Translations under genes and position numbers: made by a program
From: Treponema sp. J25
Lineage (GTDB): Bacteria; Spirochaetota; Spirochaetia; Treponematales; Breznakiellaceae
Reading direction: 5' to 3'
DNA length: 64,000 nt
Assembly (NCBI RefSeq): GCF_004343725.1
Contig: NZ_PTQW01000013.1
Coordinates: forward strand, 124,001-188,000
In this document: piece after piece, positions 60,912 to 64,000 of the stretch
Position numbering within the stretch: position 1 is the first letter of the stretch
How the letters are laid out: the number at the start of each line of letters is the position of its first letter
The notes under the pieces: model-generated
Database searches by the model: none
Seen by the model: the letters and a program-made list of their open reading frames with translations, nothing else
Told to the model about the DNA's origin: nothing

Positions 60912-62033
60912 TTACTGATATTCTTTTGCAAGAGCACTAATACGATGCGCCATATTGGCCAGGCTTACCTGCTCCTGAACGTGACCCAATTCGTAGGCTA
61001 CCCGGGGCATTCCATACACGACTGATGAAGCCTCGTCCTGCCCAAGGGTAATCCCGCCGGCCCTCAGAATTTCACCAAGCTCCCGGGCCCCATCCCGCCC
61101 CATCCCGGTCATGATTACCCCCATGGCGCGGTTCCCAAATTCTCGGGCTACCGAGGCAAAGAGAACATCCGCTGAGGGACGGTGGCCATTTACCGGTGGA
61201 CTGTCACTGATACGGGCCACCGTGGCAAGGGGCCGCTTTTCTACTTCCAGATGACGATCCCCCGGAGCGATGAGGATTCTTCCGGGGCGGATGATGTCCC
61301 CGTCCTGGGCTTCTTTTACTTCCAGAGGGCAAATGCTATCCAGACTTTTGGCAAATTCGCTGGTAAAACCGGCGGGCATGTGTTGAACTACCACAATCGG
61401 GGCAGGCAAGTCCCTATCGATCTTTGAAAAAACCTCTCGCAGCGCGTTGGGGCCGCCGGTGGAAATCCCTATCGCAATGATTTCAATGGGTCCCGGTTTC
61501 CGTTCGGGCACTATTTTAGTGACCGGTGGTACTGGTTTTTTGTGTTCCTCTGCCGGTATTGCCGTTGGTATTTCGGAAGGAGCAAGGGGTTCGCCGGTGG
61601 GGAGGGGTTTCCCTTTTTTTTGCCGGTACTGACAGCCATAGGCGTACAACATGTTTACCAGCTGTTCCCGGATCTGTTGAACATTTTCAGGATTGGTGTC
61701 CGAGGGCTTCATGATGAAGTCGCTTGCCCCCAGAGCCAGGGCTTCCATGGTGATTTCTGCACCCCGACGGGCTATGGAAGAAAGGATGATAACGGGAATA
61801 TCTATGCCCAGCCTTCGGCGTTCTTTCAGGAACTCAATGCCGTTCATCTGGGGCATTTCGAGATCCAGAACGATGACATCGGGGGTGCACCGCTCTAGTT
61901 TTTGAAGCGCGAAGAGGCCATTCATGGCCTTATCGATGACCACAAGGCCACTCTTGCTTGCCACCATCCGGCTTATGAGGTTCCGCATCAAAGCGGAGTC
62001 ATCAACAATTAGGACCCCAATTTCGTGTGCCAC
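60912..62033 (-). CDS. cheB: Chemotaxis response regulator protein-glutamate methylesterase CheB
   Basis: A 373-residue two-domain enzyme that removes methyl groups from chemoreceptors. Receiver domain (1-125): VDDSALMRN, phosphorylation aspartate in VIVLDLEMPQMNG (about residue 57), lysine in FIMKPSD. A proline-rich linker (about 150-180) leads to the methylesterase domain (185-370) with the triad Ser (GISTGGPNAL), His (VVQHMPAGFT) and Asp (MTGMGRDGA). It starts with GTG at 62033 behind AAGGAG and lies 15 bases after cheR. It serves the three receptors in this window, among others. Confidence 0.96.
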   Translation of the reverse strand: MAHEIGVLIVDDSALMRNLISRMVASKSGLVVIDKAMNGLFALQKLERCTPDVIVLDLEMPQMNGIEFLKERRRLGIDIPVIILSSIARRGAEITMEALALGASDFIMKPSDTNPENVQQIREQLVNMLYAYGCQYRQKKGKPLPTGEPLAPSEIPTAIPAEEHKKPVPPVTKIVPERKPGPIEIIAIGISTGGPNALREVFSKIDRDLPAPIVVVQHMPAGFTSEFAKSLDSICPLEVKEAQDGDIIRPGRILIAPGDRHLEVEKRPLATVARISDSPPVNGHRPSADVLFASVAREFGNRAMGVIMTGMGRDGARELGEILRAGGITLGQDEASSVVYGMPRVAYELGHVQEQVSLANMAHRISALAKEYQ

Positions 62034-62048
62034 ACAGGACTCCTTGCT

Positions 62049-62864
62049 TTAGATGTATTTTCTATAGAATGTAGCCCATTCGGTCTTTACAAACTCAAAC
62101 TTGGTGTTCATGCCAAAAAGGGACTCCGAGTGTCCGATGAAAAGAAAGGACTTTGGCGCCATGGCTTCCCAGAAACGTTCTATGGTAGCTTTTTGAGAGG
62201 CCTCATCAAAATAGATGAGCACATTGCGACAAAATACCACGTCCATGTTTCGGAGTCCGGAGTCGTACATAAGATTATGGTAGTCAAAGCGGATCATCTG
62301 TTTAATCTCATCCCGGATCTGATAGCCCCCATCCACCCGGGTGAAATACTTTTTTAGGTAATGATCGGGGACTCCTACCACACGGGCATCCGCATAAAAT
62401 CCCTCTTTCCCAACCATAAGAGATTTAAGACTGATATCGCTGGCCACGATTTCGGCGAACCACGGCGAAGGAAGGGTCTCTTTCATCAACATTGCAATAG
62501 TATAGGGCTCTTCACCGGTAGAACAGCCGGCACTCCAGACCTTTATCTTAAAATCGTTAAGAGGTTTTTTGATCTTTATTAACTCGGGGATCACGTATTT
62601 TTCCAGAGCGTCGAAATGGGCCTGGTTTCGAAAAAATCGGGTAAGGTTGGTAGTGATGGAGTCCAGAAAGAGTTTAAGTTCTTCTTTATCTTTACTAACT
62701 AAGTCATAATAGGCTCGTACTTCATTCAATCCCTTTTCGCGTAACTGTTCCTTTAATCGGCTTTCAAGAATAGCCCGGTTAGTATCGGAGAAATGAATAC
62801 CACTTTGATTATAGATGAGTTTTCGAAAAAGCTCGAAATCTCCGTCGGATAAAAAACTACTCAT
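62049..62864 (-). CDS. cheR: Chemotaxis protein methyltransferase CheR
   Basis: A 271-residue SAM-dependent methyltransferase that methylates glutamates of chemoreceptors. The N-terminal helical domain (FELFRKLIYNQSGIHFSD) is followed by LFLDSITTNLTRFFRNQAHF, the SAM-binding WSAGCSTGEEPYTIAM (about residue 112) and DVVFCRNVLIYFDE (about 215). I choose the ATG at 62864: the frame is open further upstream, but that part has no similarity and covers a promoter. There is no ribosome site; TTGACA, 17 bases, TACACT ends 7 bases before the ATG, giving a leaderless mRNA. cheB follows. Confidence 0.95.
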   Translation of the reverse strand: MSSFLSDGDFELFRKLIYNQSGIHFSDTNRAILESRLKEQLREKGLNEVRAYYDLVSKDKEELKLFLDSITTNLTRFFRNQAHFDALEKYVIPELIKIKKPLNDFKIKVWSAGCSTGEEPYTIAMLMKETLPSPWFAEIVASDISLKSLMVGKEGFYADARVVGVPDHYLKKYFTRVDGGYQIRDEIKQMIRFDYHNLMYDSGLRNMDVVFCRNVLIYFDEASQKATIERFWEAMAPKSFLFIGHSESLFGMNTKFEFVKTEWATFYRKYI

Positions 62865-62871
62865 AAAATAA

Positions 62872-62922
62872 AGTGTAAAAAGGCAAATATAGGCTGTCAA
62901 TTGAATTTCGACGTGATATACT
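62872..62922. promoter_or_regulatory. Divergent overlapping promoters of cheR and the BFN gene
   Basis: For cheR (minus): consensus TTGACA (62895-62900), 17 bases, TACACT (62872-62877). For the BFN gene (plus): CTGTCA (62894-62899), 17 bases, extended -10 TGATATACT (-10 hexamer 62917-62922). The two -35 boxes are the same bases read on opposite strands, so the promoters should exclude each other. Both would start transcription at or next to their start codon. Confidence 0.7.
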
Positions 62923-62928
62923 ACAAAT

Positions 62929-63414
62929 ATGAGCAAAATATCTATTCCCTGTGAATTAATAGGCCTTGCCTATGAAGAAAGACGGGAATTACCCTTTGTG
63001 TTGCTCCGGGAACCCCAGAGCGGCAAAGTAGTCTCGTTTCCGGTAAATCATGCGGAGGCGAGCAGTATTATTTTTGGGGCAGAGGGAATTCGGGGGCCCC
63101 AGCCGGGAATTCACGATGCCTTTATTCAATTCTTTGTAAATCATGGATATAAAGCTGATTATGTCTATATCTGGGGGGATGGGGATACCCATTTTTATGG
63201 ATATTTAAAGTATCATGCTCGGTTTGTGTCCCATCGGCTTGAGATGAATCCCGCCGATGCCATTTCCCTGGCTATTCGCTTTAAGGTTCCTATTATGGTA
63301 GATGAAACTCTTCTTGCCCATATGCCGGATAGGGATAAGAAAGAACAGGAAGCGGGTTTTTCTTTTCAGCAGGTTCTTGTTTTTGATCATCCGCCGGTTT
63401 CCTGGGTTTCGTAA
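62929..63414 (+). CDS. Bifunctional-nuclease (BFN/DUF151) domain protein
   Basis: A 161-residue protein dominated by a DUF151/BFN domain: LPFVLLREPQSGKVVSFPVNHAEASSI near the N-terminus, then THFYGYLKYHARFVSHRLEMNPADAISLAIRFKVPIMV. Family members are described as having DNase and RNase activity, best known from a plant protein; the bacterial role is unclear. The C-terminal tail (about 135-161) is extra. The ATG at 62929 has no ribosome site and lies 6 bases after the -10 box, so it should be leaderless. Divergent from cheR. The 170 bases before pyrG contain the pyrG promoter. Confidence 0.85.
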   Translation: MSKISIPCELIGLAYEERRELPFVLLREPQSGKVVSFPVNHAEASSIIFGAEGIRGPQPGIHDAFIQFFVNHGYKADYVYIWGDGDTHFYGYLKYHARFVSHRLEMNPADAISLAIRFKVPIMVDETLLAHMPDRDKKEQEAGFSFQQVLVFDHPPVSWVS

Positions 63415-63551: not shown

Positions 63552-63580
63552 TTGACGAAACGGAAGCCCCTCGTAATAAT
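63552..63580 (+). promoter_or_regulatory. Promoter of pyrG, near-leaderless
   Basis: TTGACG (63552-63557), 17 bases, AATAAT (63575-63580; TAATAA one base earlier), then 8 bases to the ATG at 63589. No Shine-Dalgarno precedes the start. A leader of 0-3 bases would leave no room for the pyrG attenuator known from Bacillus. Confidence 0.55.
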
Positions 63581-63588
63581 GCCCATAC

Positions 63589-64000
63589 ATGAACAAGTAT
63601 ATTTTCGTGACCGGTGGGGTATGTTCCAGTTTAGGGAAAGGGGTGGCCGCCTCTTCTCTCGGGGCTCTGCTGGAATGCCGGGGACTCAATGTCCGGATGA
63701 TCAAGTGTGATCCCTACATTAACGTAGATGCCGGAACCATGAGTCCCTACCAGCATGGGGAAGTCTACGTAACCGATGATGGGGCAGAGACGGATCTGGA
63801 CCTGGGAAATTACGCTCGTTTTACATCGAGCCCCCTTTCCCGGGCAAATTCGATTACCACGGGACAGGTGTATGATGCAGTTATTCGAAAGGAGCGGGAG
63901 GGACGGTTCCTTGGTCGTACGGTACAGGTAATTCCCCATATTACCGATGAAATAAAGGGCCGAATTTATGCGGTAGGAAAGGATCCTGACGTCGATGTGG
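63589..64000 (+). CDS. pyrG: CTP synthase (3' end outside window)
   Basis: The first 137 codons of CTP synthase, which makes CTP from UTP, ATP and glutamine. The synthetase-domain P-loop reads [20 protein letters not shown] (residues 6-25), followed by [20 protein letters not shown] (about 40-59), [13 protein letters not shown] and [17 protein letters not shown]. These are near-invariant in the family. The glutaminase domain lies beyond the right edge. The start is fixed by the conserved [10 protein letters not shown] beginning. Confidence 0.97.

Follow-up and report, generated by a model that had tools for sequence, protein, structure and literature searches.

The window analysed here, a stretch of DNA of 64,000 nucleotides, contains a chemotaxis methyltransferase gene (cheR) and a gene for a bifunctional-nuclease-domain protein (bfn) that face away from each other across 64 bp. 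The two putative promoters in this space meet at what appears to be a single -35 box, and the locus raises the question of whether one box serves both directions and whether sharing it makes the expression of the two genes reciprocal.

Promoter elements between cheR and bfn

The genes and promoter elements of the locus are as follows, with positions given for the window.

60912..62033, minus strand: cheB (Pfam PF01339 and PF00072), separated from the end of cheR by 15 bp
62049..62864, minus strand: cheR, chemotaxis methyltransferase, 271 aa (Pfam PF01739, E=3e-67, and PF03705)
62872-62877, minus strand: cheR -10 box TACACT (AGTGTA on the plus strand), 7 nt to the ATG; invariant in the clade that shares the box
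62894-62899, plus strand: bfn -35 box CTGTCA, a 4/6 match, spacer 17
62895-62900, minus strand: cheR -35 box TTGACA (TGTCAA on the plus strand), spacer 17
62914-62916, plus strand: extended -10 motif TGA of bfn, the TG invariant in five sharing sequences
62917-62922, plus strand: bfn -10 box TATACT, 6 nt to the ATG
62929..63414, plus strand: bfn, bifunctional-nuclease-domain protein, 161 aa, predicted leaderless (Pfam PF02577, BFN_dom, E=1e-18)

The original prediction placed a -35 box for both directions in CTGTCAA (62894-62900), with spacers of N17 on either side, an extended TGA and gaps of 7 and 6 bases to the start codons. Every one of these coordinates was confirmed by direct reading. 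The cheR promoter reads TTGACA-N17-TACACT-N7-ATG on the minus strand and the bfn promoter reads CTGTCA-N17-TATACT-N6-ATG, with its extended -10, on the plus strand. The two -35 hexamers have five bases in common, and the -10 boxes are separate. By sequence match, both -35/-10 pairs lie on opposite strands with spacers in the range of 16-18, as in a back-to-back divergent pair of sigma70-type promoters.

The term leaderless is used here as a prediction from the distance between the -10 box and the ATG, and both genes have a -10 box that lies 5-8 nt before the start codon. The cheR start codon is the CAT at 62862-62864, from which a leaderless start is predicted at 62864, and the alignment of the CheR amino terminus with its orthologues begins at the same methionine. 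The predicted starts of cheR and bfn are approximately 64 bp apart.

With respect to the neighboring genes, cheB and cheR probably form one transcript. The window CheR is 79-81% identical to those of the genomes of one genus that includes Gracilinema caldarium (L063). The bfn product has a weak match to TM0160 (1sj5), and the same genome (labelled G000) has another, diverged BFN-domain gene at G000:C20:46583-46906 with 26% identity. The bfn gene is followed in the window by pyrG, which is preceded by TTGACG-N16-TAATAA (63552-63589) at 9 nt before its own ATG. From this sequence, pyrG may also be nearly leaderless with a promoter of its own behind bfn.

Predicted leaderless cheR promoters

Upstream of cheR, 94 distinct spirochaete sequences were compared, and 75 have a TANNNT box 4-9 nt before the ATG. 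Among these 75 leaderless-looking promoters, the -35 box matches TTGACA in at least 5/6 positions in 61 and exactly in 54. The TTGACA-N17-TANNNT promoter of cheR is kept across the order, as is the divergent cheR and bfn pair itself. Judged by this conservation, the cheR promoter is ancient and the predicted leaderless cheR is a trait of the family.

To estimate the base rate of leaderless genes, 392 kb of the window's genome were sampled with crude gene calls, and 19 -10-like hexamers were found at gaps of 6-7 compared to approximately 8 expected (P ~7e-4). None of the 27 leaderless candidates in this sample had an SD core, compared to 47% overall; this difference is partly mechanical since the -10 box occupies the SD region. 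In two relatives, G167 (L165) and G036 (L012), the cheR -35 and -10 boxes are kept and the leader is 21-24 nt in length, with an SD-like GAGGAG in G167. Such sequences would represent a change between leaderless and leadered cheR with the promoter unaltered.

Conservation of the shared box

Divergent cheR and bfn genes were found at 26 linked loci. The cheR TTGACA is present at a spacer of 17 or 18 from a TANNNT box in 24 of them, with TTGACG in one more, and most of the 26 have a -10-like box 6-9 nt before the bfn ATG. At seven loci the box is shared and lies 17 bp from the bfn -10: G000, G021, G027, G066, G067, G068 and G036. In the CheR tree, the first six, which come from three genera, belong to one clade (93/88), and G036, a member of another family, is placed elsewhere. 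Sharing requires two changes on this tree, and a single clade of all sharers has a p-AU of 0.077. Since a single origin of the sharing loci is still allowed by this value, an independent gain in G036 is not claimed.

The expectation that the overlap would be conserved in related spirochaetes thus holds for the three genera of the clade and for G036 and fails beyond them. Within the same family, the gene pair and the cheR promoter are retained in G016 and G167, where bfn looks leaderless and the two boxes are 42-48 bp apart. The boxes are separate as well at nearly all of the loci in other families where the genes are linked.

Where the box is shared, conservation follows the proposed elements closely. 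From five distinct sequences of the clade, representing its three genera, 18 of 19 columns are invariant in the elements compared to 5 of 30 in the spacers (p=4.7e-8), and the stretch from one -10 box through to the other contains no indel. The proposal of two sigma70-type promoters on one -35 box with two leaderless-looking genes is therefore supported: the elements and their spacing are kept, the letters of the spacers are not, and the layout recurs elsewhere.

A more difficult matter is whether bfn uses the -35 box at all. The box may serve cheR alone, with bfn transcribed from an extended -10 promoter (TGn-TATACT) and its apparent -35 a by-product of a palindromic TTGACA and a short intergenic distance. 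The palindrome gives any cheR -35 box a 4/6 match on the opposite strand for free, which is the score of the bfn box, and the bfn promoters of relatives with separate boxes also have poor -35 hexamers (2-4/6). A conserved C in CTGTCAA might have pointed to a -35 box specific to bfn; this argument was dropped, since CTGTCAA is also common in cheR promoters that have no adjoining bfn. With its weak -35 box and a TGn that does not vary among the sequences of the sharing clade, the bfn promoter may be driven chiefly by the extended -10. Against exclusive use by cheR, the 17-bp spacing to the bfn -10 is kept in five sequences without indels and is found again in G036; furthermore, at other gene pairs the -35 box on the second strand is TTGTCA (5/6), a better match than that of bfn, and TTGNCAA symmetry is the rule. 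Use of the box by cheR alone is the strongest rival interpretation for cheR and bfn, and it is considered rather unlikely.

Recurrence of the layout at other gene pairs

A loose form of the layout (ANNNTA-N17-TGTCAA-N16-TANNNT) had 6 matches in the window's genome compared to 3 and 2 for controls in which the second -10 was shifted. Overall, there were 66 matches compared to 54 and 41 for the shifted controls, which is a modest excess. A reversed-pattern control (66 compared to 2) was set aside as misleading since it does not control for real promoters. With a background of a few loose matches per genome, a single example would prove little. The gene context is more informative: in seven genomes, divergent pairs with both genes leaderless accounted for 13 of 27 shared-box matches and 0 of 39 shifted-control matches (p=1e-6), where the 13 pairs fall into four or five kinds with orthologues counted more than once.

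A strict symmetric form (CAT-N6-ANNNTA-N17-TGNCA-N17-TANNNT-N6-ATG) was found at 18 sites in 15 of 200 genomes of the family, where base composition predicts 0.1-0.9. In the same 200 genomes, no match was obtained when the central core was displaced by 3 bp, and the reversed strict pattern also had none. It is highly improbable that the elements at cheR and bfn are promoter-like matches that arose by chance and have no promoter function. The loose-pattern background would allow for this; however, the conservation of elements over spacers, the family-wide cheR promoter and the empty strict-pattern controls all argue against it.

In a phylum-wide draw of 393 genomes, the strict pattern was present in 25, all of which belong to Spirochaetia, the class of the window. 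With group sizes counted by hand, this amounts to 25 of ~215 genomes in the class and 0 of ~178 in other classes (p ~1e-7). Although the pattern asked only for TGNCA, 28 of the 30 sites in this draw read TTGNCAA, an excess with p=5e-13 if the second T is taken at 0.3 and with sites that are partly orthologous. Since TTGNCAA is a near-palindrome, in which one strand presents TTGACA and the opposite one TTGTCA, its prevalence argues for selection on the -35 boxes of both strands in the class. As far as sampled, the sequences indicate that cheR and bfn are one case of a recurrent layout confined to Spirochaetia.

Several other gene pairs have a -35 box in common. In the window's genome, a PEGA/FGE-sulfatase-domain membrane protein is paired with signal peptidase I (lepB) on contig C29, and an SBP-like lipoprotein with an unknown protein on C37. 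In seven relatives, secA and a lipoprotein-like protein have a box in common with gaps of 6-9. The PEGA and lepB layout also extends to a second family of the class (L343, L344). In two genomes of that second family, the layout joins an endonuclease IV-like and a peptidase-like gene, both named by the look of their sequences, and a third site has a very short second frame (L341, L342, L345).

Two further observations concern sequences near such boxes. A 160-aa protein with no Pfam family (MQIREPDIIRLIERIGDH / MQVKDSEVMRLIERLGEH) has a shared -35 box in L249 (G000:C37) and L300 (G016:C69) with a different-looking partner in each genus. A dispersed repeat, CGAATTGCCTCATAACTAATCT in G029 and CGCGTTGCCTCATAAATAATCT in G028, lies a few bases downstream of TGTCAA at many loci; promoter-like sites with the repeat beside them (for example, G029:C116:14473 and G028:C1:306406) are found in two genera.

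The reason for the overlap is a separate question from its use. Deletions between leaderless genes may have continued until their -35 boxes met, in which case the overlap is tolerated rather than selected. This explanation by genome compaction alone concerns only why the boxes overlap and is compatible with two functional promoters. It draws on the cousins that have lost bfn (L170, L174, L176, L177, L179, L182, L191, L193, L194), where cheR faces pyrG at 54-56 bp, the pyrG -10 is ~7-8 nt before the ATG and the promoters are more interleaved than those of cheR and bfn. From these tighter pairs, compaction around an old, fixed cheR promoter would be a recurring theme, and sharing also comes and goes on the CheR tree. 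In contrast, compaction alone does not account for a strict pattern that needs a centred box and vanishes with a shift of 3 bp, for the TTGNCAA symmetry, or for a PEGA and lepB layout that spans the window's family and another family of the class. Compaction alone is a serious possibility with a little under an even chance of being correct, and sharing at cheR and bfn may be its tolerated outcome even if sharing is selected elsewhere.

A more far-reaching reading is that Spirochaetia possess dedicated -35-centred bidirectional promoters (a near-palindromic TTGWCAA, a -10 box at 17 bp on each side and 6-7 nt to the ATG of each leaderless gene) in which one docking site would serve a fixed gene pair, such as cheR and bfn, PEGA and lepB, secA and the lipoprotein, and others, and would link their initiation. 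This broader proposal is tentative and is held with somewhat less than even confidence. The layout links leaderless expression with intergenic compaction. Genomes can be searched for it, as a central TTGWCAA between divergent ATGs that lie 63-65 bp apart, and such searches can make the calling of start sites in spirochaetes more accurate.

Proposed mechanism and the question of reciprocity

The 64-bp region is probably a compact pair of divergent leaderless promoters for the housekeeping sigma factor, centred on one -35 box and nearly independent at ordinary occupancy. The elements, with their spacing, conservation and recurrence, are seen directly in the sequences; the use of both boxes, the transcript starts, leaderlessness, exclusion and independence at the basal level are all predicted from them. 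In this mechanism, CTGTCAA/TTGACAG would be bound by sigma region 4 in one orientation or the other, and the -10 box 17 bp away, on one side or the other, would set the direction. Since the -10 boxes are six or seven bases from the ATGs, each transcript is predicted to begin at the A of its ATG or one or two bases away at most, and cheR (with cheB) and bfn would be expressed from leaderless mRNAs. A single sigma region 4 fits a -35 box in one orientation at a time, which should make opposite initiation complexes mutually exclusive. Each docking event would thus physically exclude the other direction.

Exclusion does not necessarily lead to reciprocal expression. It had been proposed that polymerase competition at the shared box would make the chemotaxis methylation genes and bfn reciprocal, for which there is a physical basis since two polymerases cannot sit on one -35 box. 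In an E. coli bidirectional promoter, strong activation of one side does repress the other (PMC12825309). However, at all five of the E. coli promoters tested, which are bidirectional around a common -10, basal activity was too low to cause more than negligible competition, and the partner was repressed only on strong activation (PMC12825309). By analogy, cheR and bfn probably fire almost independently at ordinary occupancy, with coupling expected only if one side were very strong. A reciprocal switch would also be expected to keep the overlap wherever the gene pair is kept, whereas relatives retain the pair without it and only 7 of the 26 linked loci share the box. Moreover, the same layout occurs at housekeeping pairs (secA, lepB) where reciprocity has no evident purpose. 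A reciprocal switch at cheR and bfn is therefore unsupported and considered improbable.

Comparison with known promoters

A text search of the open-access literature found no description of a shared -35 arrangement. Judged by its sequence conservation, the putative shared -35 pair is real and conserved and is a new form of divergent promoters. Its closest counterparts each differ in some respect. Leptospira interrogans is, like the organism of the window, a spirochaete; its leaderless mRNAs are well documented, and approximately 440 of its mRNAs have a 5' leader under 10 nt (PMC5243855). The shared -35 pattern with gaps of 6 and 6 was absent from the ~178 genomes of other classes, among which Leptospira is presumably included.

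The Pc and Pr promoters of plasmid pLS20 are divergent sigmaA promoters that, like the putative ones of cheR and bfn, overlap on the DNA so that polymerase can be on only one of them at a time (PMC4207663). In pLS20, the -10 of one promoter is the -35 of the other and the switch is made by RcoLS20 (PMC4207663), whereas no regulator is known for cheR and bfn.

The bidirectional promoters described by Warman, Grainger and colleagues resemble the cheR and bfn pair in having a near-symmetric core element that is read both ways, with one polymerase excluding the other (PMC12825309, PMC10268837). They are defined by a shared -10 with starts 7-25 bp apart, and separate divergent promoters are placed outside the class (PMC12825309, PMC10268837). 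With a shared -35, predicted starts that are much further apart and two mRNAs predicted to be leaderless, cheR and bfn fall outside this definition. Bacterial bidirectional promoters in earlier descriptions have the -10 as their common element. A pair centred on the -35, with both mRNAs predicted to be leaderless, would be a second geometry and a simple test bed for how polymerase chooses its orientation.
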